Below, in pieces: positions 20,718-57,840 of a stretch of DNA of 64,000 nucleotides; position 1 is the first letter of the stretch; every line of letters starts with the position of its first letter. Below the pieces are notes generated by a model. That model ran no database searches and was not told where the DNA came from. It saw nothing but the letters and a program-made list of their open reading frames with translations. The stretch is from Eunapius fragilis (Eukaryota > Porifera > Demospongiae > Spongillida > Spongillidae). The translations under genes were made by a program, and so were the position numbers. The stretch is from positions 13,642,237-13,706,236 of the forward strand of contig OY811973.1 in assembly GCA_963681505.1 (NCBI GenBank). The letters are read 5' to 3'.

Positions 20718-20774
<57 letters not shown>

Positions 20775-20812: not shown

Positions 20813-20890
20813 ATGTATTTATGTATGTATATGTGTATGTATCGACGATCTATTTACATCAGTAGCCTATGTCTGAGTACGTATATGTAT

Positions 20891-22222: not shown

Positions 22223-23545
<1,323 letters not shown>

Positions 23546-23629
23546 CTTATTTTGACCTGTTGGGTATCATACAAGCTTTTGATACCCATGTATGTATGGA
23601 ACGCCAATCATGTCAATAATCGATCGTCC

Positions 23630-23722
23630 GAAATCGGCTGCTTTCATCAATCGATCATGCAACTGTAGGGTGCTTTCATCAATCGATCATGCAATTGTAG
23701 GGTGCTTTCATCAATCGATCAC
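23630..23722. repeat. ~35-bp repeats at the Z tip
   Basis: Three near-copies of CTTTCATCAATCGATCATGC-type units lie between the terminus and the 13-bp array. They are mirrored at about 46370-46460 in the right tip. Confidence 0.85.
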
Positions 23723-23766
23723 CATAAATCGGCTGCTGCCCATGGATTGAAAAATTCAGTGAACCA

Positions 23767-24317
23767 TCGATTGAATCATCGATCACGTCCATCGATCGAT
23801 CAGCCCATCGATCCCATCGATCGATCACACCCATCGATCGATCACGTTCATCGATCACGTCCATCGATCGATCACGTCCATCGATCACGTCCATCGATCA
23901 CGTCCATCGATCGATCACGTCCGTCGATCACGTCCATCGATCACGTCCATCGATCACGGCCATCGATCACGGCCATCGATCACGGCCATCGATCACGGCC
24001 ATCGATCACGGCCATCGATCACGGCCATCGATCACGGCCATCGATCACGGCCATCGATCACGTCCATCGATCACGGCCATCGATCACGGCCATCGATCAC
24101 GGCCATCGATCACGGCCATCGATCACGTCCATCGATCACGTCCATCGATCACGGCCATCGATCATGGCCATCGATCACGGCCATCGATCACGGCCATCGA
24201 TCACGTCCATCGATCACGGCCATCGATCACGGCCATCGATCACGGCCATCGATCACGTCCATCGATCACGGCCATCGATCACGTCCATCGATCACGTCCA
24301 TCGATCACGTCCAACGA
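23767..24317 (+). repeat. 13-bp CATCGATC satellite, left tip of Z
   Basis: About 42 copies of CATCGATCACGGC or CATCGATCACGTC, with occasional extra CGAT steps. Each unit contains the self-complementary ATCGAT. The long frame (RSRPSITAIDHGH)n is a by-product of a unit not divisible by three. Confidence 0.95.
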
Positions 24318-25130
24318 TCATTTGCCATATGTGCCAATATTTTATACATCATGAATTCTTAATTTCATGTTTATAGCTTTAATATATCGCGAGATAATAA
24401 TTACGTGCCGGCATGCAGAAATCTGCTACTGTATGTACAATCAATGCTATTCTTTTTTTTTTCTCCCAGCTTTCTTCAAGTAAAGGTGGGGAGGTAGATA
24501 AGGCGGGAAGAATTCTCTCTTACTGACGCCGACCGGAACTTCAGAAAAATGAATGACACTCTATGTACTCAGCGCAAGAATTTTAGTTCGCTGCAGCATG
24601 CAGTCTTTCAGTGGCAAATTTTGTTATCTTGATTTGCATCCTTTGTGTATTGTGACAAGGCATGCATGCATGAGGATTTGATTAACATTATAATTTTTTT
24701 AATAAATAAAGTTCCCAAATCGGTTTGTAGGTAGAAGGATCCTTTAACTATTGATTTGTCCTGTTCGTTAATTTCATCCGTTGCGGAGATACAGCTGTGC
24801 AAAGTATGTGCATCCTTCCCGCCATTGTATGGTCGTAGCCGGACATGAATATTCAAACAGCTATTGATAACGTAACCACACCCATGAACGTCACGTACGT
24901 GGGTGGGAATGAGCGTAGCGGTGATGTCATACATCCGCACGTGATGGGGCTGTCAAACAGGTTTGAATATTCAGCTGTGCTAAAAGTATACGGGTGGCGG
25001 GTGCACTCATCGTACTTTTTATTTTTATTTTTGAAATTGAAAATTATAAATCAACAAAAGATCAAGAAAAAAAAACATCGAATGAAAGAAGATTAAATTA
25101 AGCATTTACACAGATTCAATGGTATAATGA
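24318..25130. other. Z arm middle: untranslated module
   Basis: Lies between the satellite and the HECT copy. It includes GGAGATACAGCTGTGCAAA and CCCGCCATTGTATGG, also present in the arms of the foldback at 6129-8471, and GTAACCACACCCATGAACG. The mirrored stretch is 34616-35258. Confidence 0.6.
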
Positions 25131-26078
25131 TTAATACAATCCAAATCCGCCATGATTTAAAAAACCATAGGATACATGCACTTCAAAAGCGTCATATGAT
25201 TCATGGCAGGTTGGAAGTGTCAGTTCAAGAGCACAAGTCGAGGCCATAGGGTACTTAGTTGTATTATTAAACAATATTGATGGTGTTATGTCAAAACCTC
25301 CTTGAGGAATTGATGAAGCTCCAGAAAAGAACTCCAACACTTGTTGCAAAGATGCATCAGCAATACAACTAGCTATAAAAATGAAAAGTGTTTATTGGTT
25401 AGCAATATGTGGTATTGCATGGATTTTACCTTCACATTTGTACAGATAATCTAAAAACATCATATATGCCTCCTCTTCCTTCTTTCTACAATTGCTGCCT
25501 TCACACGACCATCGCACATTGAACAGCTCCTTTATTGCATCTACATGGATGATTAATAGATTCAATGGCATTTTAGATGAAGTATAGGCAAAAAATTATG
25601 AGCACACTTTAAAAACAAAATTCATTACAAGCTTCAGCAGTGTAATATGCTCACTTGCTGATAAGGAACTCTGTTTTGTAGCCAGAAACAATGGCTCGAA
25701 CAATTGTGGGTTGTGCTGTATCTCCTCTAGCAGACCGAGTGCTTGTACTCCAGTCATGAGCTGATCGAGCTCCGCTTTACAATGAAGAATTACGTGATGC
25801 AGCTTGATACAATTCATTATTCTGTCCTTGTCCTTCAGCTTCCATTTTAATATTAGGCACCCAACTCGCTGGAGTTCATCGCAGTGATCAGAACATATAA
25901 GACTGATTGTCGCATCAGAGTCAGCATTGCTTAGCTACGGTTAAAGAAAAAAAAAATGATTCTGTTAACACATTAATTAAGAACCAATTCACCTTTTCCA
26001 GTACTGCCTTAGCTTCCTCATTACCAACTTCCTCATTACCAATAACAATTTCACTCACACTGCAACCACTGATGTACT
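25131..26078 (-). pseudogene. Partial HECT gene copy in the left arm of Z
   Basis: Reverse complement of 33667-34615, carrying the last three or four exons including the C-lobe with its catalytic cysteine and the stop codon. It lacks the upstream N-lobe exons because the arm ends at 26078. Reading frames match the right-arm copy with almost no differences, so the arms are recent or kept alike by gene conversion. It is not expected to make an active ligase alone. Confidence 0.85.
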
Positions 26079-26477
26079 GACTGACGCGGGAACGTTTATA
26101 TCGCTTTCTACCTCTTTTATGAAAAGGGTGATTTCTGATACCTGTATATTAAATCATACTGTTATATATTGTAAGACCATTATTACACATACTATATCCA
26201 GGCACTTCTGTACTGGCCATGCAGTCTCTATCAACTCTGTTGAGTTATTGGAGAGCTCGTGCATGATGCATGTGTACGATATTCAGATTGAGTATGTCCC
26301 ATCAGTAAATTTCTTCTCATAGAACTGACATCACATATATATTTACCTCCATGTATGCATGCCCTACACAACTTTCCTTATGAAGTTCTACTGAAAGGGC
26401 ATTCACTGTTCACTATATCTTCAAGGATTATAATGAAAACTGTAGGTGATCTTACGTATAAGGAGCTCAAGGTCTTC

Positions 26478-29400
26478 TCAATGAGGGAAAGAACTTAACA
26501 TATAACGATGTAAACCCCACTTCAGAGCACATATATCATCCACATCTGGCTTGTTGTAGTAAGATGGGATCAGGAATTTCTCCACATTCTTAGAACCAAA
26601 ACAGCCTCTTTCACTACTATGAATGTTGTCATTACTGCTATCATTGTGGTCAGGGGTACTTTGATTCGAAAATGTGTCACTTTTATTGTCATTACAATGC
26701 ACTGGAGCTGGGGAAAAAAACGCAAAAAATATGCATCACCATTTATTTCACATGTAGAATACCCTACTGTCTTCAGGTATAATAACAGCTTTTACAAAGA
26801 GCATTGATGGGCGATGAAGTAGTGTTTCCTATCCAAGTAAACAAGAAAGGATAATAAGCTAATGTCACTACCAAAGCCATACCTTATACACAGCATTCTC
26901 TTATGAAACATAGTTTTAAAAAAAGACAGTAACGCATGCTTTTTATCCTGAATAGTTATTGACCTGTTGATATCTTCATAGGGAACAAATCATTAACTGA
27001 GAGCTCATACAACATTTGGAGACAAAACCTTTTCACCATATCCTGAAAGTGAAATACTTTTTAAAGGCCTGCTGGATACATTAGCAGTGTACTTGGATGT
27101 ATTCAATTGTAACATTTTCCAACACAAGCCTAGCAGCCTGTTGTGCGATATTATTGCAATGTGCATAAAAAATGATGTAAAATAAACTTACATGTACTAG
27201 ACATGCATACATACCGCAGTCACTTGTGTTTCCCTGACTGGGCAATTTGCTGTTCTGAAATGTTGTGATAAGTGGAATATGATACATTTGATATCAATAT
27301 GACAGTTCCCTATTCCAACAGGGTAGGTGTGCACATGTCAGGATGGGGGACCCAACGCCACACATAGCTCCCCAATGCCTGACTGACTAGTTAGTGACCC
27401 CCAAATGAAATCATTCATATCATCTTCACTAAAGATGGATGCCACCTATGAAAGCAGATCCAGACATTCTGATGACAGTTCCCTGTTCCCACAGTGTAGG
27501 TGTGTACATGTGAGGATTGGGAACCCAACGTCACGCGTAGTTCCCCAATGCCTGACTGACTTATGAGTGACCCCCAATGCAATTATTCACATATCTTCAC
27601 TGAAGACGGATGCAACCTCTGTAAGTTCTAAAGTGGATCCAGACAATCTGATGACAGTTCCCTGTTCCCACAGGGTAGGTGTGTACATGTGGGGATGGGG
27701 AACCCAACGCCACGCGTAATTCCCCAATGCCTGACTGACTTATGAGTGACCCCCAATGCAATTATTCACATATCTTCACTGAAGATGGATGCAACCTATG
27801 TAAGTTCTAAAGCAGATCCAGACATTCTGATGACAGTTCCGTATTCACAAAGGGTAGATGTGTACATGTGAGGATGGAGAACCCAACGCCCCTCGTAGTT
27901 CCCCAATGCCTGACCATCTTGTGAGTGACCCCCAAATGAAATTATTCCCATCTCATCTTCACAGAAGATGGATGCCACCTCTGTAAGTTTTATAGCAGAT
28001 CGACACATTCTGATGACAGTTCCCTGTTCCTACAGGGTAGGTGTTTACATCTGAGGATGGGAAACACTATGCCATGGCTAGTTCCTGGATGCTGTCTCCT
28101 TCCTGGACCATTTTTTCAATGGCCTACTTGACAACGCTTTTAAGGATAACCAAGTAATCTGAATGGTGCTGCATGTCCGATGTATTATAATTTGGAATAT
28201 GCAAAACAATGATACATTTCAGTGCATGTTTATGCTTTTAACTCTTTAACGGGCGGAAGTCAATTATTGCCGTGGGCGGGTCGTTTAATTGTTATCGCGC
28301 GATAATAGCGTACATGTTTCCAACGTGGTTTTCTTGGTGGTAGGTGACTTTTAGAAGATACGCTACCAGTTTTGGGACGGGAAAACGTTATAGAAGTGAA
28401 ATATCTTTGTTGCCATGTTATGTGTTACGAATGTAGATTGTGCGACTGCTGCGCAAAATTGCGCACCCGCCCACCGGCATGGGTACGTTACGGCGCAATA
28501 TTGCGCAGCTGCCCACGAAAGAGTTAAAAACCTGGATTCGTGTTGGTGTGGAGCATGTGTTAGTTGAAAGGTTCGGTGTGCAGGTATTAATAGATGAAAT
28601 CTGAGGAGTTACTAAGACCAGTTGCTAAAGTGTTGTCATTAATTTTACAATTAGAACAGAATGAATGGATCTGCTTTAGAAATTACAGAGGTGGTGTCCA
28701 TCTTCAGTGAAGATGATATGTTAATAATTTCCTTTGGGGTTAATTCACAGGTTGGCCAGGCATTTGGGAACTACGCGTGGCGTTGGGTTCCCCATCCTCA
28801 CATGTACACATCTACCCTGTGAGAACAGGGAACTATCATCAGAATGTCTGGATCCGCTTTAGAACTTACAGAGGTGGCATCCATCTTCAGTGAAGTTGAT
28901 GAATGAATTATTTCATTTGAGGTTCCTAACAAGTTGGCTAGTCATTTGGGAACTACGCATGGCGTTGGGTTCCCCATCTTCACATGTACACACCTACCCT
29001 GTGGGAACAGGGAATTGTCATCTAAATGTCTGGATCTGCTTTAGAACTTACAGAGGTGGCATCCATCTTCAGTTAAGATAATATGTGAATAATTTCATTT
29101 GGGGGTCACTCACAAGTTGGCCAGGCATTGGGAAACTACGCGTGGCGTTGGGTTCCCCATCCTCACATGTACTCACCTCCCCTGTGGGAACAGGGAACTG
29201 TCATCAGAATGTCTGGATCCACTTTAGAACTTACAGAGGTGGCATCCATCTTCAGTGAACATGATGTGTGAATAATTTCATTTGAGGTTCCTCACAAGTT
29301 GGCCAGGCATTAGGGAACTACGCGTGGCGTTGGGTTCCCCATCTTCACATGTACACATGCACCTACCCTGTGGGAACAGGAATATGTCATCAAAATGTCT

Positions 29401-30343
29401 GGATCTGCGTTAGAACTTACAGAGATGGCATCCATCTTCAGTTAAGATAATATGTGAATAATTTCATTTGGGGGTCACTCACAAGTTGGCCAGGCATTGG
29501 GAAACTACGCGTGGCGTTGGGTTCCCCATCCTCACATGTACTCACCTCCCCTGTGGGAATAGGGAATTGCCATCAGAATGTCTGGATCTGCTTTAGAACT
29601 TACAGAGGTGGCATCCATCCCCAGTGAAGAAAAATGTAGTGCTTCAATATGTTTGAACTGATCTGCACACATGCAGGCTGCCTATATATGTACATGACAG
29701 AACAAAGGATTGTGTCAAAACAACTATAGCACTGCATGAATTCAGTTCAATGCACTCTTTCATAAGATGAATGGTGGTTCAGAGCATGGTGCAACTCAGT
29801 CCCTCAATGTTGGAAACCAGTGGTGCATGCACTATTCATATACATGTAAGCTGGGTGCATGTTACCCAATCATGAAATTGATTTGGTTGACAACCTAAGC
29901 TATGAATAGATCAATTGTTTGGACCCGTTCTGAACCGTCGCATACATTGGTCCAACACTAAGGATGTTTGCTACATTTTTTAAGCATCTAGGAACAGTGA
30001 GTATGGCGTATGAGTTGCATGTTGTGTCGTTTTTGATTTTTGATTCAATTCGTGCATTGTCATGGGCGTTTTATATTATATTCTCTGAGTTTGGTGAGAG
30101 CTGAGACTTAGATGCGTTGCGTACCTACCATGTCCTAAGCATCGCCGTTAGAATGGTCATACCGACAACCGTGGACTAACCTCATACAGTCATCAAACGC
30201 ACATTCCTCAGCCTAACATTGTAAAATGTGCGGCTGAGGAATGTGCGGCTAACTTCAACGGGGTCGCCAACACAACAGTCATCAATTAACTTTGCGATCT
30301 TCTTTGCACGATTCTTTTCTCTTCGCGATCGACGTGACGGCAT
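26478..30343 (-). CDS. Ulp1-like cysteine protease gene of Z (fragmentary model)
   Basis: A minus-strand ATG at 30341-30343 opens a basic N-terminus (MPSRRSRREKNRAKKIAKL). A segment at about 29990-29860 reads LKNVANILSVGPMYATVQNG and then HDWVT (29860-29874), aligned by eye with the Ginger Ulp1 domain at 54500-54650 (LKNQFSHVGGL, HHWVT). The exon at about 27285-27190 has QGNTSDCGMYACLV, the Ulp1/C48 active-site cysteine motif. The exon at 27052-26962 (DMVKRFCLQMLYELSVNDLF) matches the helix following it. The last exon, 26708-26478, ends in LHRYMLSSFPH and is unrecognised. Several exon joins, and the frame near 29890, are unresolved; some may be decayed. The role in the family is deSUMOylation-like or polyprotein-like proteolysis; the substrate is unknown. 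Confidence 0.55.
27301..28070 (+). repeat. ~180-bp tandem repeat, forward array
   Basis: About 4.3 units containing GATGACAGTTCCCTGTTCCC, GGGAACCCAACGCCACG and CTTCACTGAAGATGGATG. It lies within the presumed intron of the Ulp1-like gene. Confidence 0.9.
28242..28523. mobile_element. 282-bp MITE with TTAA target site
   Basis: Inverted ends CTCTTTAACGGGC and GCCCACGAAAGAG are flanked by TTAA at 28238-28241 and 28524-28527, the pattern of piggyBac- or Kolobok-type non-autonomous elements. The interior is GC-rich with GCGCAATATTGCGCA-like palindromes. It lies between two oppositely oriented arrays of the 180-bp repeat. Confidence 0.75.
28662..29640 (-). repeat. ~182-bp tandem repeat, inverted array
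   Basis: About 5.3 units of the same family as 27301-28070 in reverse orientation. The pair could form a large stem around the TTAA element. Confidence 0.9.
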
Positions 30344-31567
30344 TTTGAAGAAAACAAACCAGACACGTCAAGCTTTTGGTATTACAATCGTGACAACAAT
30401 TGAATAGTATTAACTGTAGCGCATTATATAACGTGTTCAACCACACGTTCCCGCCCACTTTTATGTCTTCCAAAGGCCGATAAAATCTGTTGTGGGCTAT
30501 ACTAACAAAACAGAGATTGAAATTTGTGTCAAGCATAACTCTCGTTACTAACATAATAAAACAAATCCAACTCGACAATAGAGCTCTTTCATGGTCACAT
30601 GACGCGTGGGCTTTAATTTCTTTATTGTCCGCCATATTGGTGCTCGGAAATATAGTTTTGGTACTTTTGATAACTCGCGCTCCGAGGGCACAAGTATTTT
30701 TACAAATGTTAGTCATGTGTTAGACCACAATAATATGGCGGACTAATTAGAAGATGAATGCTATTAAGTCACGCGATGAAAGAGCTTGTTGGTTCTAGTG
30801 CTTCAGCATAACGGCTAACATTATACTTCAATCGTGACAAAGATGCAATATAATGCAATAAACCTCTTATCCGAGCAAATATCTTATCACATTCGGAAGA
30901 AGGAGAAACTTTTTTTCAGGTTCGAGTGTGGGAACGAGAGAGCTTTATCTCTGTTGTCTGAGGTTTCTAAGCGTCGGCAGTTTTATTACATTGTAGGTAA
31001 TTGTTGGCTGTATCCAAATACGCTCGCTAAAGTCCAACTGATTCTACGGTGCAACGGCAATAGTGGAATCTGGTTTTTTGCTAATCGTATTCATCACACT
31101 TCAAATCCTACATAAGACCTACTAACGTAGGTCCTGATAATATCAGGGGGTATCTAATCGGCAGTGTAACCAATTGGTTGTTAATTTCATCAATGATACA
31201 CCGTTCATTAATATTCATAGGGGGCGTCTGTAGGGTATTGATTGTCAATGATATACCGCTCATTAGTATTCATAGGGGGCGTCTGTAGGGTATGAACCGA
31301 CCGTATCATTGCGTGATTGTCAAATCAGCGGTTGTACTTAGGCCTCCACTTTGTACAACTGTATATCTACATTGTCCTGTACTGTTATGAAAGGCATGTA
31401 TAGTGTAGCCAATCTGCACTGCATGTCACTGTTTTTTTTTTCAAGCCTGTATGTGTATGTGGCCCGGATCGTGGTCTAGACCAGGGGATACTTGGACTGT
31501 ATCACTGAGTGTCCCTATATAAGTATGCGCTCACGTGATGTGCTTCCGATCTTTCTCGATATAATGT
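30344..31567. promoter_or_regulatory. Divergent intergenic region of Z
   Basis: Lies between the start of the Ulp1-like gene (-) and the HECT gene (+), so promoters for both should be here. It contains an imperfect inverted repeat (GAGCTCTTTCATGGTCAC at about 30581 versus GATGAAAGAGC at about 30776, with CCGCCATATTG and AATATGGCGG inside), perhaps a MITE. A tandem duplication with CATAGGGGGCGTCTGTAGGG is at about 31215 and 31269. An open frame at 30834-31115 is not recognised. Confidence 0.4.
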
Positions 31568-34500
31568 ATGCTTATACAAACTACAACTACATGTATGTCA
31601 TTTCCATTACACAAGGGTGTACACATGCTGTTACTTTTAAATAGTTGCCGGGATGGAGGTCAGTCATCCACTGTGTGCAGCCCCGCATTGGGTACCCTGA
31701 GACAGATTAGGAGGAGCAATTCCCAAAGAGAACAAAGGAGTAATTTTGCTCCATACCCGACTGGAGACAAAAAGAAAGCAAAAAAACAATCTTGGACAGT
31801 TCGATTTGTCTGTCTCGACTCGACTAATGCAACTTCTGCACCGTGCACTCCTTCAGCAAAAGAAAAACTTGTCGCTGCTGGGCTTGGAGAAAAGAAATTC
31901 ACCATTCCAGACACATCCTGCTCGAAAAATGCATTCAACGATGCAATTTTGGAATTGTTTCCAAGACTCAGGGAATCCGGAGGCTATGAGTTGCTGAAAT
32001 GTGTTCCAAATTCAAAACAGTTGGAGATTGTATCATCCAGAATCTCACAGAGTCCTTCATTGCTAAGATCAGTGGTCGGAAATGGCCGGGTATTTATTCG
32101 ACCTGTTCAGAATAATCTTAGTCTGGTTCCAGAAGAACGTTTATCTTCATCCCCTGAGGTAAGCCTGAAGAATTGACTGATGCATGTGATGTGACATCAT
32201 ATTTTTTGCAGAGAACTGAGAAGTGCCTTCACTGCCTGAAGGAAATTGTGGTGCATGAATTAAGAACTCATGTTGCAACATGCAGTGAAAGGTATGAGCC
32301 TTATATGATGATACTAGTCTACAGGTATCTAATCTTTGTACTGCATGTTTTGTTATCTACACTTGTTGTTTTATGTATCTTTTGATTTCAGTGGTGATGC
32401 ACAGGGAGTGAGATGTCGTGACAACATGCAAACAGGAAGGTATACTACTAATATCACTTATGACATGTTACTCTTCAGTGTTCCTTATTATGTTAGTGAT
32501 GGACAGAACAGTAGTGGTGCAAGTGTTGGTGCAAGTGCAGGCATGCGATTAAGAAGAGAAAGGTATTTTTATGTTATCACAAAGACAAAAAGATATGTCA
32601 CTAATTTCAATAATTTTATTCTTTAGTGTTCCTTATGACGTACAGAACAGTAGTGACATGCTTACAAGAAGGACAATAGAAAGGTCAATTTTTTTGTGTG
32701 TACATACAAAAAAAAAACTCACTGCTTTCCCGTTATTAGTGATGGACAGAACAGTAGCAGCATGCAAACACGAAGCACACAAAGAGAAAGGTAAAGTTAG
32801 TCATAAAAAGTAGTTTTGACGCATGTTAAGGAAGTCATGTTTTTACCTCAGGGTTCCTACAGAAGCCAGAAATGCTACAAATGATATGGAATGTGTCAGT
32901 ACATTGTCAAGGTGACTTAAAATCTCATGCAGTTAACTATCACTTAGTAAATGTATTATTTTACTCACAGTGATGCTGAGGTTCTTGTCATCTCAGATGT
33001 AAGAATTCACAACACACTGATGTTTCCTATTCATTTTTTGTCCAAATTGTAGTCAGATGAAATTGAAGCTGAGCTTATGCAGCATGTAATGGATATAAGC
33101 AAATCTGACCAGTAAGGAAATTATAACTCAAATGCTATGACAATGTCTATTTCTCTTATGTCAGAAATGAAGGAAGTGGTTCGTTAACATTATCTTCAGT
33201 CCTTGAAAAGTTGACAGCCTTGATTGACTCCGAAAAGATCACAGCTATTGCAATAAGGAGAACCAATGTCCTCAATGATGCCATGCGTGCATTGGCACGC
33301 CCAAACTTTGGTTTATCCAATAGCATTAAGGTAACTTTGCAATGCTAATTGACTGATGCCCTTGTGAGTTATTTCTTTTCATAGGTTGAGTTTTTAGGTG
33401 AACCAGGAGTTGATGGTGGTGGTCCTAGAAGGGAACTCTTTTCAATCCTTAGCCGAGAAATGTTTAAAGTCGTATTTAATGAAAAGGGTTGCCTTAGACA
33501 TGATGTTGTGGCACTACAGGTTGCACAATATTGTATGTTGTGCCAGCCAGTATTATTTATACTATATCATTTCAGGCAAAGAGGTTCATGTATACTGGCC
33601 AATTGATCTCGTTGGGTGTTGTGCATTGTGGGTCCAGCTTTGCATTCTTTTCACCCGCACTGTACAAGTACATCAGTGGTTGCAGTGTGAGTGAAATTGT
33701 TATTGGTAATGAGGAAGTTGGTAATGAGGAAGCTAAGGCAGTACTGGAAAAGGTGAATTGGTTCTTAATTAATGTGTTAACAGAATCATTTTTTTTTCTT
33801 TAACCGTAGCTAAGCAATGCTGACTCTGATGCGACAATCAGTCTTATATGTTCTGATCACTGCGATGAACTCCAGCGAGTTGGGTGCCTAATATTAAAAT
33901 GGAAGCTGAAGGACAAGGACAGAATAATGAATTGTATCAAGCTGCATCACGTAATTCTTCATTGTAAAGCGGAGCTCGATCAGCTCATGACTGGAGTACA
34001 AGCACTCGGTCTGCTAGAGGAGATACAGCACAACCCACAATTGTTCGAGCCATTGTTTCTGGCTACAAAACAGAGTTCCTTATCAGCAAGTGAACATATT
34101 ACACTGCTGAAGCTTGTAATGAATTTTGTTTTTAAAGTGTGCTCATAATTTTTTGCCTATACTTCATCTAAAATGCCATTGAATCTATTAATCATCCATG
34201 TAGATGCAATAAAGGAGCTGTTCAATGTGCGATGGTCGTGTGAAGGCAGCAATTGTAGAAAGAAGGAAGAGGAGGCATATATGATGTTTTTAGATTATCT
34301 GTACAAATGTGAAGGTAAAATCCATGCAATACCACATATTGCTAACCAATAAACACTTTTCATTTTTATAGCTAGTTGTATATTGCTGATGCATCTTTGC
34401 AACAAGTGTTGGAGTTCTTTTCTGGAGCTTCATCAATTCCTCAAGGAGGTTTTGACATAACACCATCAATATTGTTTAATAATACAACTAAGTACCCTAT

Positions 34501-34615
34501 GGCCTCGACTTGTGCTCTTGAACTGACACTTCCAACCTGCCATGAATCATATGACGCTTTTGAAGTGCATGTATCCTATGGTTTTTTAAATCATGGCGGA
34601 TTTGGATTGTATTAA
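31568..34615 (+). CDS. HECT-type E3 ubiquitin ligase carried by Z
   Basis: About 14 exons. Exon 1 (31568-32158) has a basic Ser-rich start and a domain with LVAAGLGEKKFTIPD, AILELFPRLRESGGYELL and VFIRPVQNNLSL, the region found before HECT in G2E3-like proteins of fish and invertebrates. Exon 2 (32212-32291) is a small zinc finger, C-x2-C...H-x3-C (EKCLHCLKEIVVHELRTHVATC region). Five short Ser-rich exons follow, several starting with VP or SD, apparently duplicated. The HECT N-lobe starts at 33165; 33385-33519 has FLGEPGVDGGGPRRELF. The C-lobe exon 34372-34615 holds the catalytic cysteine in MASTCALELTLP and ends GGFGLY. The enzyme takes ubiquitin from an E2 onto that cysteine and transfers it to a substrate. 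All key residues are present. The start codon is the first plausible ATG and may be downstream of the true start. Confidence 0.85.
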
Positions 34616-35258
34616 GCATTATACCATTGAATCTGTGTAAATGCTTAATTTAATCTTCATTCATTCGATGTTTTTTTTTCTTGATCTTTTGTTGATTTAT
34701 AATTTTCAATTTCAAAAATAAAAATAAAAAGTACGATGAGTGCACCCGCCACCCGTATACTTTTAGCACAGCTGAATATTCAAACCTGTTTGACAGCCCC
34801 ATCACGTGCGGATGTATGACATCACCGCTACGCTCATTCCCACCCACGTACGTGACGTTCATGGGTGTGGTTACGTTATCAATAGCTGTTTGAATATTCA
34901 TGTCCAGCTACGACCATACAATGGCGGGAAGGATGCACATACTTTGCACAGCTGTATCTCCGCAACGGATGAAATTAACGAACAGGACAAATCAATAGTT
35001 AAAGGATCCTTCTACCTACAAACCGATTTGGGAACTTTATTTATTAAAAAAATTATAATGTTAATCAAATCCTCATGCATGCATGCCTTGTCACAATACA
35101 CAAAGGATGCAAATCAAGATAACAAAATTTGCCACTGAAAGACTGCATGCTGCAGCGAACTAAAATTCTTGCGCTGAGTACATAGAGTGTCATTCATTTT
35201 TCTGAAGTTCCGGTCGGCGTCAGTAAGAGAGAATTCTTCCCGCCTTATCTACCTCCCC
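33667..35258. repeat. Right inverted arm of Z, inner part
   Basis: Inverse of 24490-26078. It contains the HECT C-terminal exons and the 3' untranslated module. It stops abruptly at 35258 where the 10.3-kb insertion begins, and resumes at 45554. Confidence 0.85.
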
Positions 35259-36279
35259 ACATATCGAGAAATTGGCGGTCAAAAGGATTACGCGGTATTC
35301 GGTCATTGCGTAATTCGGTGTCCATAGAAAATGTATGGACGCATTCAGAAAACTGCATCTAACTGCAGAAAAAAAAATTATATTGACTAGGTGCTCTCGG
35401 ATTTGTAATGTGGGGACTATTTGGCATATTTTGAGTAGTTTTTCGCACCTTAGGTACTTATATCCGCACTTCCACATTAATTATGCAAGGTTTCCAATGT
35501 CCATTCATTTTATCTCATTTCGTTATTCAGTCATCAATAGTTTCCCAACCAAATGATAATTTCGTTAGGTGCCAACGGATTATATGAGAGCAGTAAGTGT
35601 ACTTATTTATCATCATTTTTTCAGAGCTTAGGGCCTTCAAATCGCACTTCCGTTGAATGGTTAGTGAGATACACCCCGCATACAAGACGATCATCACGTG
35701 CCCCTTATCATCAGTCGGCCGTGCCCAGACCTAGCTGTTTTTTGATGTTGTAGTTAAATGACCAATAATTATTGCTATGTACTGACTTAGCATGATGACC
35801 ACATGTAGGAGTGGCTAGGTGGCACTAATCGGGAAAGACGGAGGTTGCGATTACACAAAGGAGTTTGCCACTCAGAGAATCGACACGGGCATACAACCAG
35901 ACTTATTACGGAAGGATCTTGTAAGTCTCAGAGTACTAGTTAAGTAGCATGAATGCAAAACGTATATTGGATGGTAGTGACTGTTCGTAATACGCTAAAA
36001 GGTTATATACCGGAGCGGTAGTACATGTAAGAGCTTACACGTAGAGGTAACGTCTGGTACAAACGGCGGGAGCATCAAATATACAAGAGCTGCCATATTT
36101 CTATACGACTGACGGTACGCACTTTATTGACCTTTCCCATTGAAAATGAATGCATCATAAAAGATTGAATACTTCTAACTTTGCAAAAGCTAGTCCGACT
36201 TTAAGTTTAGGTGCATTAGATTTGTGCCAACTGCAGCATTTGAAAACTACCATGTTTTCTCGTACAATGTCCCATGTGT

Positions 36280-36480
36280 GAACATACATGTACATGTATA
36301 TGTACATGTATGTATAGATGTATATATGTATGTGTGTGCGTTTATGACTAAGTATGTGTGTGTGACAGTGTTTATGGCTATGTGTACATGTGTGTTTTAT
36401 GTGCACGTATGTGTGCATGTGTTTTATTTGTATGTGTGTACGTACATGTATATGTGTGTATATGTACATGTATGTGTATA
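36280..36480. repeat. Degenerate TGTA/TG repeat
   Basis: Imperfect ATGTACATGTATGTGTG-type tract. A similar one lies at 40640-40875. Confidence 0.85.
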
Positions 36481-36617
36481 TATGAATTAGTGTTATCTAT
36501 GGCAACACCTCACCATATTAAAAAGTCTCCCGTGATCCTCCACTTCACTATACCAACTGCCTCATTCCAGGCCAGGTATGTGTAAAAGTCCGTACTTCCC
36601 TTCAGTACCTTATCGCT

Positions 36618-36619
<2 letters not shown>

Positions 36620-36713
<94 letters not shown>

Positions 36714-36716
36714 TGT

Positions 36717-36750
<34 letters not shown>

Positions 36751-36795
36751 GTGTGTATGTGTGTGTGAGTGTGTGTGTGTGTGTGTGAGTGTGTG

Positions 36796-36846
<51 letters not shown>
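36620..36846. repeat. (TG)n microsatellite with GAG interruptions
   Basis: About 225 bp of TG with regularly spaced GAG steps in the middle. Confidence 0.95.
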
Positions 36847-36848
<2 letters not shown>

Positions 36849-37321
36849 ACCCCTTATACCTACTTCACAAGCCTGAAATTAATTGTAATGTAATTGGGGG
36901 AAGGAGGCTAGGGACACATTTTCCTGTCTAGCCACCCAGCTTTGCCATATTGGGTCTCCAGAATCAAAATGCAGCTTTGTGTATGAAACATACATTAGGC
37001 TTAACCTCACCTTGACTAGGTCTCTTGTAAGAGCAATAATGGCCCGGACTCTCGTAGCTTAAAATTTTTTTACTGTAGGTGTATAATCCATGTTCATGTA
37101 TCTTAACTGTAGTAAGCCATATTACAGTACCTTAATTATGATTATGAAAGTACAAATTTATTTACATATCTTGTGAAACCACAAGTTCATTTACCACACT
37201 GCTGTTTTTCCTCTCTTCTCCTCCACCTCTTTCTCCTTCCCTCCTCCCATCCTCCTCCTCCCTCCCCCTCCTCTCCTCCTCCCCTTTCTACTTATACCCA
37301 TCCTCACACTTCTCCCTCTCC

Positions 37322-39340
37322 TGCCCCGAAGATGTGTGGTCTGTGAGCTCATCACTGTTGCCATGGCAGCTCTACGGGGGATGAGCCTGTCCTCTGCAGT
37401 ACGGAGTTTATTAGTTACCATCATTTGGAGGTATGTCTCCATTGGCGCTACATGTATGTGTCCATTGGTCCTACACATATCATGGGTGTACACAGGGGGG
37501 GGTCATTGGGTTTGAACAACCCCCCGTCCTATCCCCAAAGCGAGATCGCCTTCATCATTGAGTCTAATCAGTTTTATTAAGAACAAAATATATTGTATGA
37601 TGCGTGTATGTTATTGTAAGTTCACCTATTAACCAAATTCAACCCCCCCCCCCCCCCCCCCCCCCCCTCTTCCTGAAGGCTGCGTATCCTACATGTATTG
37701 GTCTTCACTCATTGGTCCTCACTCATAGTGTTTTAAACTCTCCTCTAATCCCTGACCCTGTCGAGTCATTTTAGTTACAGGAAGTAGGAAGAGGTGTGGT
37801 TTTAGTTAAGGGAGATGAAATGTCCACCCCCTCCCCCCATTGGGAGCACACACATCTCCTACACTTTACCTGTATCCATACACGGAGCATATGTTGGCAC
37901 ATTGTCACTGCAGTAAGAATGGTGGAGCCACCTATGTGCTCCTAGATAATAACAATGTGGAGAACATTGCTCAAGAGATGGTCAGGCTTTTGTGTGTGCT
38001 GTACCGTTCCCCTCTTCCCCATCAGTCCCTCCTCCCCATCACTGTGAATTGATGGGGAGGAGGCAGCAGTGATGAGAAGACATCCAGTCAGATTTTCTGG
38101 TAAGCTCTCTGAGCTCCTCCCCCCCCCCCCCCCCCCCCCCCCCCCCTCTTCCCATCAGATTGGTCAGAAAAACTCCTGATGATTGAGTGAAGGTATACCC
38201 AGGTGGTCTGCCAGCAGCTCTGGTTCCAGGCTCAGTGGGCTACCTACATGACTGCCTGGTATGGACCAGGGACTGAACCCATCATACCGAACAATGTGAT
38301 GTAGCTCATGGACTGTGCCAGTCACCCTTCCAACCTCCACCAGGAGAACCACTACTCAAATGTAAAGCTTTGTGTTTTCATCATATAATGCTTGCTACTG
38401 TATATGCAGACTGTAAAGTTGTTCAGTGACGTTGTGTATGGTGTTGACACAAGTTTGTATGTTTGTGTACCAAATGTATCAAATGTAGACAGTTGAAGAA
38501 GGGCTGGTAGTTGTATTAGCTGCTGTCTGAGTCTTTGTGGTTTCATAAGTACTGCCTCTTTAATTAGGAGTGGTGACATGTGGAAGAATTGTTATTGGTT
38601 GTGGGTTTTATGTAAACTTTTCAATTAAGAGGTCAGATAATTCGTTGTTTTTCTTGCTCCTAGCTCTGCATTGGCAGACTTATTAAGTAATATGTAAGGC
38701 ACTCACTCTGCAATGGCTGCAAAGTACATGTAGGTTCTGCATTATGACATACCTCACTGAGGTCAGATCTCGCACCTCATTGTGTCGAATTGAAGGAAAG
38801 CCTCCTGATGGGCAATTCATGGCATGCTCCACAGTATAGATGGAGCCACATATGCAATGTGATGGTAATAAAGGAGGTTACCAGCCATAGTGTAAGCAGA
38901 TAGCATCTCTAAAAGCACTCTAGGTTCTCAGGGCCATACCCAGAGGGGGTTCCGTAACCAAGGAAACCAATAAAATTGCTATAGCAATTTTATAGGTTTC
39001 CTTGGTTACGAACCCCCTCTGGGTACGGCCATGGTTCTTTTCCTCAAATTGTTGGATCCCACGCTCAGGAGGCAACGAAGTTGCACAAGTGATGCATGGT
39101 ATCCTCAAGAGGTATGAAGAGCTCACTACTGTGAGGTATAGTTAGAGCAAGGTATGTCCATTTACCAGATTGTAGTACATGTTTTTTATTTTAAACACAT
39201 ACACCAGCATCTTTGCCATTGTGTATGTGAGTGATGAGTGCCAGCCTTCATGCCATCGATCACCATGGCATCCTGTTTTGTGTTACTGGCCATTGAACAG
39301 TGTTTAGTAAGAAACATGCAGGTACATGTATGTGAGCGTG
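37322..39340 (+). pseudogene. Scattered exon-like frames of an unrecognised gene
   Basis: Several stretches look like exons. About 37332-37431 encodes CELITVAMAALRGMSLSSAV and ends at a GTATGT donor. About 37913-38052 encodes NGGATYVLLDNNNVENIAQE and on to PITVN, with a stop. 38194-38272 encodes YPGGLPAALVPGSVGYLHDC. About 39053-39136 encodes GGNEVAQVMHGILKRYEELT with a GTATAG donor. About 39238-39319 encodes MPSITMASCFVLLAIEQCLV with a GTACAT donor. Codon patterns look protein-like but no family was recognised and joins are not proven. It could be a host gene fragment captured by the nested element, or the element's own gene. Confidence 0.3.
38929..39032. mobile_element. ~100-bp near-perfect hairpin MITE
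   Basis: The sequence from CAGGGCCATACCCAGAGG to CCTCTGGGTACGGCCATG folds on itself with a centre at GCTATAGC. GGTTCT occurs on both sides, consistent with a short target duplication. The CAGGG end suggests a miniature hAT-type element. Confidence 0.65.
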
Positions 39341-39479
39341 TGTGGGTGGTATGTATAGTATGCAAGCACTTACATTGTTTTTCCAGCTGTGGGTTGTGTG
39401 TATGTTTGCATGTGTATGTGATAGATAGCTAAACCACCCATTTGAGCGCAGTCATTCCTATTCTCAACAAAAATCTTTA

Positions 39480-40160
39480 TGTATGGTTGTAATTAGCCCT
39501 GGATCCAGGATTTGGCGGGGGGCACATTGATAATAAATACATGTGAAGCCAGTGGCAGATCCAGAATTAAATTAAAGGGGGATTGGAGGGACAGAGACAC
39601 CAAAGGGAGATGTGCTCGGGTTGCAGACCTAATTCCCCCCACTCCCCTCTGTCCGCCAGTGTCTGCATAGGAATTAAGTAGTCTGCCATACACATGATTG
39701 TGTATGAGAGGGCGGGGCAGCTTTGGGCTATTCCATTATTTAACCATACACACCTACAGATGACAATAATTGCAAACGTAACCCCCAGGACAATATATAA
39801 AACCACCTTAAGTTTTTTAATACCCCCAGACAAGCTTCTATTTGGTTACATCTCCCCTGGACAAGCTTATGTTATACCTGCTAACCCCTACCACTCCCAC
39901 CCCCCCCCCACCCCCCAAATACAAGCTTATGTTTTATCTGCTAGCACCCGGGACAGGCATTTATACTACCCCCCTCAGGACATATTTGCAACCCTGGACA
40001 ACGACATCGACATGTTTCTAAACACAACCCCCCACCATGGACACCATTGTTGTCATCTGTAGGAGTGTACAGTTAAATAATGGAATAATCCAATTGGTAC
40101 CAGAGGGGCGGGATATGAATTTGGGGGGGGGGGGGGGGGGGGGGGGGGGCGCATGCACAT
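39480..40160. repeat. Fragments of GGCGGATCCAGGATT-type repeats and homopolymers
   Basis: GATCCAGGATTTGG at about 39504 and GGCAGATCCAGAATT at about 39553 are near-copies of the end sequence of small hAT-like repeats in the window. Short direct repeats with ACAAGCTTATGTT at about 39860 and 39923, and a poly-G run at 40123-40149, follow. No gene is supported. Confidence 0.5.
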
Positions 40161-40226
40161 GGCTAGATCGCTGAAATCAACCTTAGCCTTAGTTTGGTAA
40201 TGTAAAACTGATGGCCTTTCCTAACT

Positions 40227-40590
40227 CCCCAGTATTGCAACGTCCAATACCCCACCGGTTCAAACCTACCATAACTTGCAGTAGGAGTAATCAAATCGCT
40301 TCAAATTCAGTTTGCAAATAGAGAGGTCCCTACATGCACATTTTCCCGCTTGATATAGCGGGACATAACTTGCCGTGATAGGTACAGGAACCTCTCTACC
40401 CACAAACCGAATTTTAAAAGTGATTTGATTATAGGAGAACCGAAAAGTATTTGGCGGGTTTGAACCTAGTGGGGTATCACACATTGCAATACCCCAAAAT
40501 GTATTTCACCATACAGAAATGGTGTACTATGAAGTGTTGAGAATAAGAAGTCATTAGCCTTAACCGTTCGGAAGTTATAGTTATTCAAAC
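40227..40590. repeat. Foldback repeat related to the 6129-8471 arms
   Basis: ATTGCAACGTCCAATACCCC at 40233 is mirrored by GGGGTATCACACATTGCAAT near 40490, with matching inner blocks (AATCAAATCGCTT versus AGTGATTTGATT). The same ends occur near 6318 and 8275 in the larger foldback. Confidence 0.65.
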
Positions 40591-40639
40591 GCAAGGGAAT
40601 ATTGAGGGGCAATTTTGTTGGAAACTGTCCCATATATAT

Positions 40640-40875
40640 AAATGTGTGCATACATGTATGTGTTTTTTGTACATGTATATATGTGAAAATGTATGTATCA
40701 GTGTGTGTTTTATGTGTATGTGTACATGTATGTGTGCATGTTTTATGTATGTGTGTACATGTATGTATTTGTGTATGTTTTCACATGTATGTGTATTATG
40801 TACACATGTGTACTTGTATGTATGTGTGTGTTTTATGTATGTCTGTACATGCATATGTGTGTGCATGTGTATACA
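40640..40875. repeat. Degenerate TGTA/TG repeat
   Basis: Imperfect ATGTGTACATGTATG tract, giving Cys-Met-Tyr-rich frames on both strands. Confidence 0.85.
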
Positions 40876-40960
40876 ATTGATTGTTTGAAGTAACAATAGC
40901 ACCATAAACAAACATGTACAAATAAAATTCTATGTTCTTGACCTTCATGTTTTCTCAGCC

Positions 40961-41071
40961 TTGTAGAGACTCACTGATGAAGAACCACGTGTGTAGCTAT
41001 GTTAGTGATTCAGTGTCAGCGCTCTTGAACTATTTGACATGCTCCCGCCTGAAAGAGTGCTGCAAGATGTA
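40961..41071 (+). pseudogene. Exon-like frame of an unrecognised gene
   Basis: After a TTTCTCAG acceptor, the frame reads DSLMKNHVCSYVSDSVSALL and NYLTCSRLKECCKM, then TAA. It looks protein-like, and may be the last exon of the scattered frames at 37322-39340 in the nested element. Confidence 0.3.
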
Positions 41072-41474
41072 AAATAGGTCACAGTCAAGTTGAATTTTAA
41101 TTTAGGATTGGAGTTAGTGATACATTAGTGTGGGCCTATTGCTTTCTGGCCACTTAATTATATGTAATCTTTTGTTTTAAGTAATGAATTGCTTCCAAAC
41201 GTGATAAACAGATCTTGTTAGGACTGATATTTGTTTTATGGGACACAAATATAAGGCATAGTCTCCCTGTCTGAAGTAATCTCTGTGGATGCTATCACAG
41301 CCTCACCCGTCACCAAAGGGTATACTGTCAAAGAAACTAGAGGACCCACCAGTTCTCATTGTTGTTGAAAGCATCATCACCTGCTGACAAGGCTCGGCTC
41401 CTCTCTGTGTCAGCACCTCATGCTGCATCCTGGCTACTGGTCACACCTCCTAGTCTTGACCTGAACTTTGAACC

Positions 41475-41665
41475 CAATGAACTGTAATTCTCCATCCAAT
41501 GGTGGCTAGGGATGGAGATGGCTAGAGGCTCCTCATGTTCTTTGTGCCCTGGCGCTACTACTTGTAAACAGGGTGGTGATGTTGTCACTGCATGGCCACA
41601 ACCATCTGCATAACGTGTATGTTGAGTTCTGCCATCGTGCCCATCTTCAGGAGTGAGAGTAGAGT
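41475..41665 (+). mobile_element. Decayed LINE endonuclease-domain fragment
   Basis: Translated pieces (NGG/WWLG-type start, CSLCPG, TCKQGGDVVT, VEFCHRAHLQ) match the fragment at 12639-13205 but frames change within it. This is an old truncated copy. Confidence 0.6.
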
Positions 41666-42240
41666 CAGGCAGTACCATTACACCAGACCTAAGCCATACC
41701 CAGCCAGCGATGTACTTGTCCTCGATTGGAGAGAGAATACATCCACTGGCCGGGCGGCTTAAGTCTGGTGTACTGCCAAGATGGACATGGTGACAGAACG
41801 CAGATGGTTGTACAACAATGGTTGTACAATTTTACAACGGTAGGAGGGTGAGTGTTAACTATGTAATTGCCGGTGTTAACAGCAAAGACAGTGTACAAAT
41901 GAGCTGCAAACTCTTGGCAGGTATATGAGCTCCTTGTTTTCTTTTCCCTAGCCTCCACCAAGAAGCGGCCACACACTCTGCAACGCTCTTTGACTTTCGT
42001 TATGTGGTGCTCCATCCAAAGCAACACCTATTATTCATATAAAACAAATGTCCTAGTTCTGAACATTGTATATATGCTCTCCCATGTGTGTTGTTGAGTG
42101 TTTATAATCACGGATCCTGTTCTGTGGGTTAGTTCGATCGTACACCAAGCTTGAAGTAGACCCACCGAAGTTACATCTGGCTGCGTGTAACTATTAATCA
42201 AATCAACTGCTCTTGCGCGTTGATACTTTTTTTTTTTACT

Positions 42241-42450
42241 AGACTGGTAGGGTGTGTGCGGGAGCTATTTATTTGAACGGAATTACTTAGAACATGTGGC
42301 TCGGCAAACAGACATGTATAATGCAAGGTACGAACGTTACAACTTTTGGCTTACACAGTATCGTCAGATCAGACAAGAGTGTAACCTACCAGGCCACCCA
42401 TACCTACACACCATCACATGTACACAGACCATCACCTACACACTATGATG
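42241..42450 (+). pseudogene. Exon-like frame of an unrecognised gene
   Basis: After a TTTTTACTAG acceptor the frame reads TGRVCGSYLFERNYLEHVAR, then YNARYERYNFWLTQYRQIRQ, ending TAA-free to a TGA at 42446. The composition is convincing for protein but no family is recognised. Confidence 0.35.
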
Positions 42451-43270
42451 ACATACCAGTACACCTCACACATGTGGATACTCAGCAGCAAAAATATGAC
42501 CAAATGGCTGGATGTTATATTATTACATGTACAGGCATCTGTATTGCTACACACTCAACAGGTCAGTTTTTATAAAGTGGGAAGGAAAAGTTTACATAAT
42601 CACCCACAACTACCTATATACATAGTTCTTATCTAAAAGACCAAGCCTATCTGCTTTCAGCAAGTCCATCAATACCAGCAACTATCCACATTCACACATA
42701 CAGTTCTTACACCACCAAATACAAATGCCAAGCACACACAAATCTACAGTGTACATGCATGCATCACATGAAGTCTGTAGAGCCTTGTAGCTACTTGAGG
42801 ACCACACAAAGCCTGCAATGTCCCTTCTATTTGAGTTGTTGCTGAAGCTTTTTGTCATGCTGGCTATATCACATTGACCATACAGCCATCTAGGGAGCAT
42901 TTCATGTGGAGTAGGAAAAATAAATAAAAAGAACGGTTAGTGTTCTTAGCCTATCCTGTTGATCACTACCCCTTTATGTTGGGCAGATGACCTCTGATAG
43001 GGGTAGGCTAAGAACAAATGTAAGGCAGAATTATGGGTACATGTATGAAGGGAACTGCATATGTTATCTTGTTGTTACATGTAGTACATATGAGTTGGTG
43101 TATGGGGTGCATGCCATATTGTTGCCCCTTGGCAATAAGTGATATAACCTCAGAGTTGCCTTAGCAACGAATTTTTAAAATTCCCCCTCTAAGGTTTTTA
43201 TCAAAGAAACCCCATGTGTGGGACTGGTAGTGTTCACTGTTATGCTCACTGTTCTAGTGTGTGATGTGTA

Positions 43271-43298
43271 GTGTGTGTGTGTGTGTGTGTATGTGTGT

Positions 43299-43384
<86 letters not shown>
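43271..43384. repeat. (TG)n microsatellite
   Basis: About 115 bp of nearly pure TG. Confidence 0.95.
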
Positions 43385-43388
<4 letters not shown>

Positions 43389-43919
43389 TTAAACTCATGT
43401 TGGTCTAATGATCTGTAGGCTAGGTGGTTGGCCAGCTATACGCTAGGGTGCTGGTGTGCCTGTGGGGTAACCTGGTGTGTACATGCTGTTATTAAGGGAT
43501 AACAGGTGACACAATCCATCACCGAGAAAAAACATCAGTGGGGGGGGGGGGAGGGACAAATGTTAAGTTGAAACTTTTAGGAGGACTTTATACCAAGCGA
43601 GCCAATTATGTGCATGGGTTGTGTCACTTGTTATCCCTTCATTGCCAAGAGGGGGCAAAAATATGGGAGGTGTGGGCACTCCCGCCTCATCAATGAAACT
43701 ATGCTGGTGTGTAGGGTCATTGGGAATGTGCACATTGTTGCTAGTGTGTACTGGTATGTGGTTGGTGGAGAATATGAGTTGGGTGTGTATGCTGATGGGA
43801 GGTCATTTAGTTGTGTATGCTGGGAGTGTACACTCATGTTGGGGGTGAAAAATGTTATTTGATGTGTTGGGTGAGTAATATAGAATTCTGAGTGTGACTG
43901 TGTTTTGAGTCATGGGCAC

Positions 43920-44620
43920 CCCCCCCCCCCCCCTTTTGAGACTCAATGGCGCCCCACCCCCAACCCCTTGTAATAAATGCTTGTTAAATAATTTAACCCC
44001 TGTCCCAGTATTGATTTCTACTTACATGCGCCTCCCCCCTGCCCACCTCCCTACATAGGCGGCGCTGACACTACGGCAAGTACGGCGAACGCCGTAGCAC
44101 TTTTTATGTTACACCCCTGCTCATATATTGAAGACCCTCTTTCCACCCCCCCCCCACCCCCCCCCAGTCCGCCGTATCACTTTTTTTATTGCTCTGCCGC
44201 CACTGCCCTATAATTGGTGCCCCTCCCCTCCCCTCTGCCCCCCCCCCCCCCCCCCCCCTTCTAGAAAAGCTGGGGGCACCCATGGGAGTGCACACTTGTT
44301 AGTATCTGTGGGTTATACAGGGGCGGTTACAGGGTTTTCCAAAAGGGGGGGTTGAGACCCACGATACGAAAAGCGGGGAGGGGGGGGTGCTGTCCGCTTC
44401 AGGCCTGATACAAAAAGCGGGGGGGGGGGGGGGTGCTGTCCATTTAAGGCCTGATACGAAAAGCGGAGGGGGGGGGGGGGGGGTGCTGTCCAGCGCTTCA
44501 GGCCCGATACAAACAGCGGGGAAGGAAGAGGGGCTGTTTTTACAGAAGAGGGGGCGTTACCATATATGAAAGGGGGGGTTGCAACCCCCAAAACCCCCCC
44601 CCCCTGGATCCGCCTAGAGC
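43920..44620. repeat. Cluster of G/C-homopolymer repeats
   Basis: Contains CAGGGGCGGTTACAGGGTTT at about 44319 and GGATCCGCCTAG at about 44606 as facing ends. Between them are tandem units with GATACAAAAAGCGGGGGG and TGCTGTCC. Similar units occur at about 7150-7210 and 47690-47730. About 44059-44210 has ACTACGGCAAGTACGGCG and CCGCCGTATCACTTTTTT, another small repeat. No gene is present. Confidence 0.55.
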
Positions 44621-45553
44621 TGTTATGTGTGTGATGGTGAGTATAATACTGTGCAGGACAACATTAAAACTCACCTGTATGCTTGATCACATGGTGGCCA
44701 TGTTGCCTGAAGTCATACTAGCTGATGTTTCCCAGGAGATAAAGCCAGTATGCTAAAACCCAAGCACCATACAATGGTAGATGTAAAGAGCACAGCATAC
44801 ATGTATATACAAATTTATGCACCCCAAGAAGCCACAAGACACATAAGCAAAAAGGATACTCAAGCATTAAATAATTTGAGACTCACCGTTCCTTTCATAT
44901 ACATGTAGCACGGACCACCCCTATTAGGCCCATACGAATATGCGCTCCTAACTTTTAATACGGCTATTTTCAGACAGTACAATACGAACAGGTTGATATC
45001 AAAGGATGAGGTCATGATTGTGGCCGTTCCTGAATTATGGGGGAGCAAATTGATTGGCTGGAAGGAGTACAGTATGCGATCGCAGTCCCCGGCCCCCATA
45101 GGTGTCAGCGCGTTAAGTTACAACTAGCGAACGTGGCGTGTACTATATCCGCCACTTCTGTAACAGTAACAATGTGCCATTCTGCACTTAGTAACAATCC
45201 GCAATTGTACATAACCCACCTTTACAAAATGTGGTTGGCCGTCTATGTGCTAATTGATGCGCATCCACCCCTCGTCGGATGGGGTGGGGCTGGCCTGGAT
45301 ACATGCACGAGTTTATTAACGAAATGCTGCTTATTGTAGTTATTGAAGCTAACGGGAGTGTTGAATTTATAATTACCTGCGATAGTAATTAAATTTTTGT
45401 CTTGATTTTTGTATAACGTTGCATACTTACAACGCAATGAAAAATAAAATTTGAATTCAGCCCAATTTTTAGTATTTTCTGAGTTTATTTAGAATTCAAT
45501 TTGAAATAAAAATGCAAGATGACCGCCGATGTATGGGCCATTTCTCCATATGA

Positions 45554-46495
45554 CCTTTACTTGAAGAAAGCTGGGAGAAAAAAAAAAGAATAGCATTGAT
45601 TGTACATACAGTAGCAGATTTCTGCATGCCGGCACGTAATTATTATCTCGCGATATATTAAAGCTATAAACATGAAATTAAGAATTCATGATGTATAAAA
45701 TATTGGCACATATGGCAAATGATCGTTGGACGTGATCGATGGACGTGATCGATGGACGTGATCGATGGCCGTGATCGATGGACGTGATCGATGGCCGTGA
45801 TCGATGGCCGTGATCGATGGCCGTGATCGATGGACGTGATCGATGGCCGTGATCGATGGCCGTGATCGATGGCCGTGATCGATGGCCGTGATCGATGGAC
45901 GTGATCGATGGACGTGATCGATGGCCGTGATCGATGGCCGTGATCGATGGCCGTGATCGATGGCCGTGATCGATGGACGTGATCGATGGCCGTGATCGAT
46001 GGCCGTGATCGATGGCCGTGATCGATGGCCGTGATCGATGGCCGTGATCGATGGCCGTGATCGATGGCCGTGATCGATGGCCGTGATCGATGGCCGTGAT
46101 CGATGGCCGTGATCGATGGCCGTGATCGATGGACGTGATCGATGGACGTGATCGATGGACGTGATCGATCGATGGACGTGATCGATGGACGTGATCGATG
46201 GACGTGATCGATCGATGGACGTGATCGATGGACGTGATCGATGAACGTGATCGATCGATGGGTGTGATCGATCGATGGGATCGATGGGCTGATCGATCGA
46301 TGGACGTGATCGATGATTCAATCGATGGTTCACTGAATTTTTCAATCCATGGGCAGCAGCCGATTTATGGTGATCGATTGATGAAAGCACCCTACAATTG
46401 CATGATCGATTGATGAAAGCACCCTACAGTTGCATGATCGATTGATGAAAGCAGCCGATTTCGGACGATCGATTATTGACATGATTGGCGTTCCA
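45554..46495. repeat. Right inverted arm of Z, outer part
   Basis: Inverse of 23597-24500. Continues the arm interrupted at 35259. Confidence 0.85.
45721..46325 (-). repeat. 13-bp CATCGATC satellite, right tip of Z
   Basis: Reverse complement of the left-tip array, about four units longer. The order of GGC and GTC variants differs from the left array in places, showing that the two arrays evolve independently by unit gain and loss. Confidence 0.95.
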
Positions 46496-47850: not shown

Positions 47851-47874
47851 TATGCCAAACAATTAAAGGGCCCT

Positions 47875-57031: not shown

Positions 57032-57064
<33 letters not shown>

Positions 57065-57837: not shown

Positions 57838-57840
<3 letters not shown>

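Follow-up and report, generated by a model that had tools for sequence, protein, structure and literature searches.

The element and its insertion site

We analyzed a 64-kb window of the Eunapius fragilis genome (C3:13642237-13706236; the window is this whole stretch, and C1, C2 and so on denote contigs), in which a composite transposon of 22.9 kb carries a gene for a HECT-type ubiquitin ligase together with a Ulp1-like exon and a nested insert (Table 1). All genome searches covered 219 Mb in 24 contigs. Only a few of the protein matches are labeled with an organism, namely Ephydatia, Amphimedon, Mercenaria and an alphaproteobacterial MAG. The element begins with TATGGAACGCC at 23595 and ends with GGCGTTCCATA at 46497, the same positions at which the arms start and end in the repeat search. 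A target-site duplication (TSD) of 6 bp lies directly outside these ends: the left flank reads CCCA TGTATG, the right flank TGTATG GAGG, and a second copy of the surrounding sequence within the window, X copy B, reads CCCA TGTATG GAGG and aligns, unbroken at the site, to both flanks fused minus one TSD. With inverted ends, TSD and empty site all seen, the proposal made in a preliminary description of this DNA, that 22.9 kb had been inserted as one unit, is borne out. The 6-bp duplication given there also stood, but each end has to be moved outwards by 2 bp and the TSD is TGTATG rather than TATGTA, because with TATGTA the empty site should contain 4 bp more than is observed; TATGTA is the TGTATG duplication read out of register. 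The X copies themselves are large direct duplications that flank the element (19805-23493 and 46600-48983 versus 56068-64000) and carry CA-rich 180-bp repeats.

Arrays of a 13-bp satellite occupy both tips, as had been described. The reported pair of 2.5-kb inverted arms required revision: the left arm is continuous, but the right arm is in two pieces with a 10.29-kb insert between them. The stretch 35261-45552 did not, in our view, belong to the element originally; relatives of it are present at other loci, and minus this insert the element measures ~12.6 kb. Because the HECT gene extends into the right arm, the left arm carries its 3′ part in inverted orientation.

Table 1. Features of the transposon and its target site, in window coordinates.
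Feature	Position	Strand	Evidence or remark
Whole inserted element, IS3EU-type, composite, apparently non-autonomous	23595..46497	.	Inverted termini, 6-bp TSD, empty site
Left TSD, TGTATG	23589..23594	.	Flank reading, alignment of joined flanks
Right TSD, TGTATG	46498..46503	.	Flank reading, alignment of joined flanks
Empty target site TGTATG, X copy B (region 59284-59301)	59292..59297	.	Joined flanks align across site
Left inverted arm, 2.48 kb, with inverted copy of 3′ HECT exons	23595..26078	+	Repeat search, arm alignment
Right inverted arm, inner part	33667..35260	-	99.56% to 24486-26078 over 1,595 columns
Right inverted arm, outer part	45553..46497	-	Pairs with 23595-24487
13-bp satellite tip, left	23777..24320	.	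40.7 units
13-bp satellite tip, right	45720..46315	.	44.7 units
10.29-kb nested insert splitting the right arm	35261..45552	.	Relatives at L010/L011, L017, L023, L030
HECT gene, N-terminal ubiquitin-like (beta-grasp) domain exon	31640..32158	+	5′ edge approximate, 3′ edge by eye
HECT gene, zinc-finger exon (TRAFD1/XAF1-type, below Pfam cut-off)	32212..32291	+	Edges by eye
HECT domain exons	33165..34615	+	Cys codon 34511-34513, stop 34613-34615, frame shift near 34380
Fragment of dispersed repeat with Ulp1-like exon and arrays of ~180-bp units	26080..29637	-	Right edge approximate
Ulp1/C48-like cysteine exon, ~60 aa around NTSDCGMYAC	27093..27272	-	PF02902 below cut-off

The HECT gene

The HECT gene reported between the ends was recovered by profile search, the joined exons matching PF00632 at E 8.7e-9 (35.9 bits versus a cut-off of 23.9) and Rsp5 at E 4.1e-9. 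A structure model of the N-terminal exon product reached a mean predicted local distance difference test (pLDDT) score of 82.7, with values of 92-98 over the domain, and its nearest folds are ubiquitin-like. The zinc finger, in open frame 32158-32385, gave E 5.8e-5 and 23.3 bits versus a cut-off of 27. The catalytic Cys of the C-lobe is present, the codons of the STC motif are identical in 8 aligned copies, and the same motif occurs in an element on C5 that belongs to a second family (below). The catalytic motifs are therefore in place, as the preliminary description had it, but the gene as a whole is not intact, since its last exon is frameshifted.

Sister copies and superfamily

The 16-base terminus has 31 exact occurrences in the genome, and the 856-base arm has 46 matches. 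Ten end pairs at nine loci were examined in full (the window, C1, C3, C6 outer, C6 inner, C7, C10, C21, C4b at C4:1508744-1512056 and C2b at C2:5397932-5405864), and the arm search gave further possible pairs. Nine of the ten pairs are flanked by a perfect 6-bp TSD; at the C3 sister locus, where the ends are doubled, no 6-bp TSD was found in any of the four end combinations. All ten have TATGG..CCATA termini, of which only the outer TA is independent evidence, because the search for pairs used the terminus starting at its TGG. Arms that bear satellite are likewise common to the family.

By tblastn, HECT sequence was found at six of the nine loci (window, C1, C3, C6, C7 and C21), its N-terminal exon at two (window and C1), a transposase at three (C3, C7 and C2b) and the Ulp1-like exon at two (window and C3). 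The check that the preliminary description proposed, whether both genes recur between these termini, thus gave a split answer, with HECT sequence recurring and the Ulp1-like exon mostly absent. The integrase core found in C7 belongs to the Pfam family rva_4 (E 3.2e-41), and among the transposase frames compared, that of C7 has two stops and that of C2b one.

Two sister loci have further nesting of their own. At C6 (L014) one transposon copy lies inside another, each with its own TSD (TTTTAC and ATCTAC), and open frames in the C1 copy (L010:2590-5266) resemble, by eye, a nested gypsy-type retrotransposon.

IS3EU transposons are described as having TSDs of usually 6 bp and TA..TA termini in the available part of one report (PMC10045372), and TAYGG..CCRTA termini in the portion consulted of a study of rust fungi (PMC12730594). 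On the sequence features of termini, TSD length and the rva_4-type DDE transposase of the sister copies, we assign the element to the IS3EU/GingerRoot superfamily, with whose known members it shares the 6-bp TSD, the TA..TA (TAYGG..CCRTA) ends and an integrase-type DDE transposase, here present in sister copies and relatives. Its distinguishing features are the 2.5-kb arms with 13-bp satellite, a length of 22.9 kb reached through nesting, and the HECT ligase gene.

HECT genes recur beside IS3EU transposases

The genome was searched with the transposase, the HECT domain, the HECT N-domain, C48 and a RAG1-N-like exon, hits were merged into loci, and random placement on the same contigs served as the control; the transposase, RAG1-N-like and HECT-domain lists hold the best candidates of these searches. 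Of 87 listed HECT-domain loci, 35 have a listed transposase within 20 kb, versus 2.9 expected (200 shuffles gave at most 8), and 20 have one within 10 kb, versus 1.3 expected. The HECT N-domain behaved likewise, with 22 of 39 loci within 20 kb versus 1.4 expected (largest of 1000 shuffles, 7); leaving out five near-identical copies, the count was 17 of 34 versus 1.1 (largest shuffle, 6). A HECT gene with ubiquitin-like domain, zinc finger and HECT domain is, in this genome, a recurrent neighbor of IS3EU transposases.

The same combination occurs inside a second TSD-flanked element, of another IS3EU family. This element spans 23,959 bp (C4:995454-1019412) between the termini TATGAAGCGCC and GGCGCTTCATA, is flanked by the TSD GATGTT, and bears a 521-aa transposase frame without stops at each end, the two in opposite directions, with HECT exons at one place between them; its interior was placed through search matches and not through base-by-base reading. 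In a copy of this family on C5, HECT exons directly precede the transposase and share its orientation, and the order of N-domain, HECT domain and STC motif is that of the window (the zinc finger was outside the comparison). The giant transposon with its HECT ligase is thus upheld, and the link reaches further than the preliminary description could have told.

The transposase region of the second family is present in seven copies that match at 100% over 301 bases; these seven near-identical regions, on C4, C5, C8 and C20, therefore point to a recent burst. In the C5 copy, a palindromic repeat family (TGTAAACAG...CTGTTTACA, at L033:2209-3334) adjoins the IS3EU end and has dozens of other matches.

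A ligase that would aid transposition

Recurrence of HECT genes near the transposases suggests that IS3EU transposons use the host's protein-tagging system. As an explanation of the whole locus, we favor, with a probability of about 0.82, a composite IS3EU/GingerRoot copy that was moved in trans, with the HECT protein aiding transposition and with neither the Ulp1-bearing fragment nor the 10.3-kb insert involved. The transposase of other copies would have bound the ends of the window copy and moved it. An intact HECT protein would be charged with ubiquitin on its C-lobe Cys and pass it to a target whose modification favors transposition, most probably a host repressor or silencing factor, a repair factor or the transposase itself, among which we make no choice. 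The ubiquitin-like domain would recruit this target or a proteasome shuttle, and the nested insert and the Ulp1-bearing fragment would be additions without a role.

Several observations weigh against this explanation. No transposase match was found in the window copy by tblastn, and the last exon of its HECT gene has a frame-shifting 2-bp difference that is absent from the seven other aligned copies; because the copy combines these two deficits, nothing shows that it acts. Transposase and HECT sequence occur together at only two of the nine family loci (C3 and C7), with just 3′ HECT exons found there, and the N-domain exon of the C4 element contains one stop, which none of the five near-identical copies has. 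The association counts measure nearness at most loci, not common ends, and 52 of the 87 HECT-domain loci and 17 of the 39 N-domain loci are more than 20 kb from any listed transposase, which does not establish that none is there because the lists hold best candidates. Support from beyond this genome is weak.

A broader proposition is that animal IS3EU transposons are generally two-gene elements, in which a DDE transposase and a dedicated ligase of the ubiquitin-like domain, zinc finger and HECT type have long traveled together, efficient spread depending on both. Here the ligase might, for example, destroy a host silencing or repair factor. We regard this generalization as tentative, at somewhat below even odds.

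It is unlikely, by comparison, that the HECT sequence is a host gene fragment captured by chance (transduplication) and carried as passive cargo. Transposons commonly capture host genes, and the broken state of the window gene would fit it; yet many diverged IS3EU transposases have HECT relatives nearby, most of these relatives showing 30-60% identity and many an open frame, and the C5-type element preserves the domain order noted above.

The Ulp1-like exon

The preliminary description had further reported a divergent gene with a Ulp1/C48 cysteine motif. Such a motif is present, but it sits in one exon of a dispersed repeat and is not evidently part of a gene of the transposon. Tested alone against PF02902, the exon scored 16.3 bits, under the cut-off of 20.7, and no catalytic His or Asp of Ulp1/C48 was recognized by eye in the listed open frames. 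In the genome, 68 matches to the exon fall at 58 loci, one of which, the repeat copy at C1:23.83-Mb, has lost the Cys. What the window holds is a fragment of this repeat, because the copies on C16 and C19 continue past window position 26080. Arrays of ~180-bp units within the repeat (window 26080-29637; L038, L039, L040) face each other.

That the HECT ligase and a Ulp1-type protease form a functional transposon pair, adding and removing ubiquitin-like modifiers, now appears very improbable. Both motifs do lie between the ends of the window element, and the C3 copy also has both. Ulp1-like loci are, moreover, slightly enriched near family ends (3 of 58 within 10 kb versus 0.2 expected; 4 of 58 within 20 kb versus 0.4, largest shuffle 3, two of the four being the window and C3) and near listed transposases (within 20 kb, 5 of 58 versus 1.8 expected, with at most 6 in any of 300 shuffles), and four of the 58 have a HECT locus within 20 kb, a count taken without a shuffled control. 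These points are outweighed by the 53 loci with no listed transposase within 20 kb, by the truncation of the window fragment at a position beyond which other copies extend, by a homology confined to some 60 Cys-bearing residues under the Pfam cut-off, by the presence of the exon at only two of nine family loci, and by the lack of any link between Pfam C48 loci and IS3EU transposases (1 of 55 within 20 kb versus 1.7 expected). Because the exon lies in a fragment of a 58-locus repeat, its pairing with HECT is most likely accidental and due to nesting; its slight excess near IS3EU may reflect shared insertion regions. Finally, satellites and long inverted arms are difficult to assemble, but an assembly artefact as the source of arms, satellites and junctions is hardly credible, given eight different sequences among the nine perfect TSDs and a matching empty site within the window.

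Relation to known transposons

The more general result is that HECT ubiquitin ligases repeatedly accompany IS3EU transposases in this genome. A literature search returned no paper combining IS3EU and HECT; subscription papers and Repbase reports lay outside that search, and an earlier mention there is possible. Broader searches gave no paper on HECT genes in transposons among the matches listed. In the part consulted of a fish study, an unclassified repeat with a G2E3 match is described (PMC5638112), which fits a link between HECT and transposons and does not show the same thing.

For fungal IS3EU elements, the only companion genes named in the available text are TET/JBP and alpha-kinase (PMC12730594), in contrast to the HECT gene here. 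Participation of the ubiquitin system in transposition has been proposed, and there are known transposons that carry proteases for ubiquitin or SUMO, according to the sections available of one report (PMC2836005). These include Ginger1, which resembles the present element in its integrase-like transposase and in a tie to the ubiquitin/SUMO system, there through Ulp1 or OTU domains. It differs in that the protease domain sits on the transposase itself (PMC2836005), whereas the ligase here is a separate gene, and in its 4-bp TSDs (PMC10045372) versus 6 bp here, which sets our element apart from Ginger1.

A recurrent ligase near the transposase would represent the activity opposite to that of the known proteases, and the dependence of transposition on it is directly testable. 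KDZ/Zisupton elements are large transposons, some with Ulp1-type proteases, and in these respects recall the present one; their 8-bp TSD and different transposase, as against 6 bp and rva_4, place it outside that group.

There is also a warning for annotators, as some HECT genes in animal genomes would belong to transposons. HECT genes annotated as 'G2E3-like' are found in animal genomes, and if IS3EU elements generally have two genes, part of these would be transposon genes.

RAG1-like exons

The C1 copy (L009:3417-4376) and the nested insert of the window (41842-42015, minus strand) contain an exon resembling the RAG1 N terminus (PF12560, E 1.8e-5) and a RING exon whose best match among solved structures is RAG1. 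In having RAG1 N-terminal-like sequence, they are reminiscent of N-RAG-TP of Aplysia, as presented in the available text (PMC8355894); the sequences here differ in being dispersed apart from IS3EU, with 2 of the 70 best-listed loci within 20 kb of a transposase versus 2.1 expected. One of the 70 lies within 20 kb of a HECT locus, and with both counts in view we rejected a single transposon gene composed of RAG1-like N terminus, RING and HECT. The RAG1-N-like exon has at least 150 matches in the genome (150 of 150 scored candidates).

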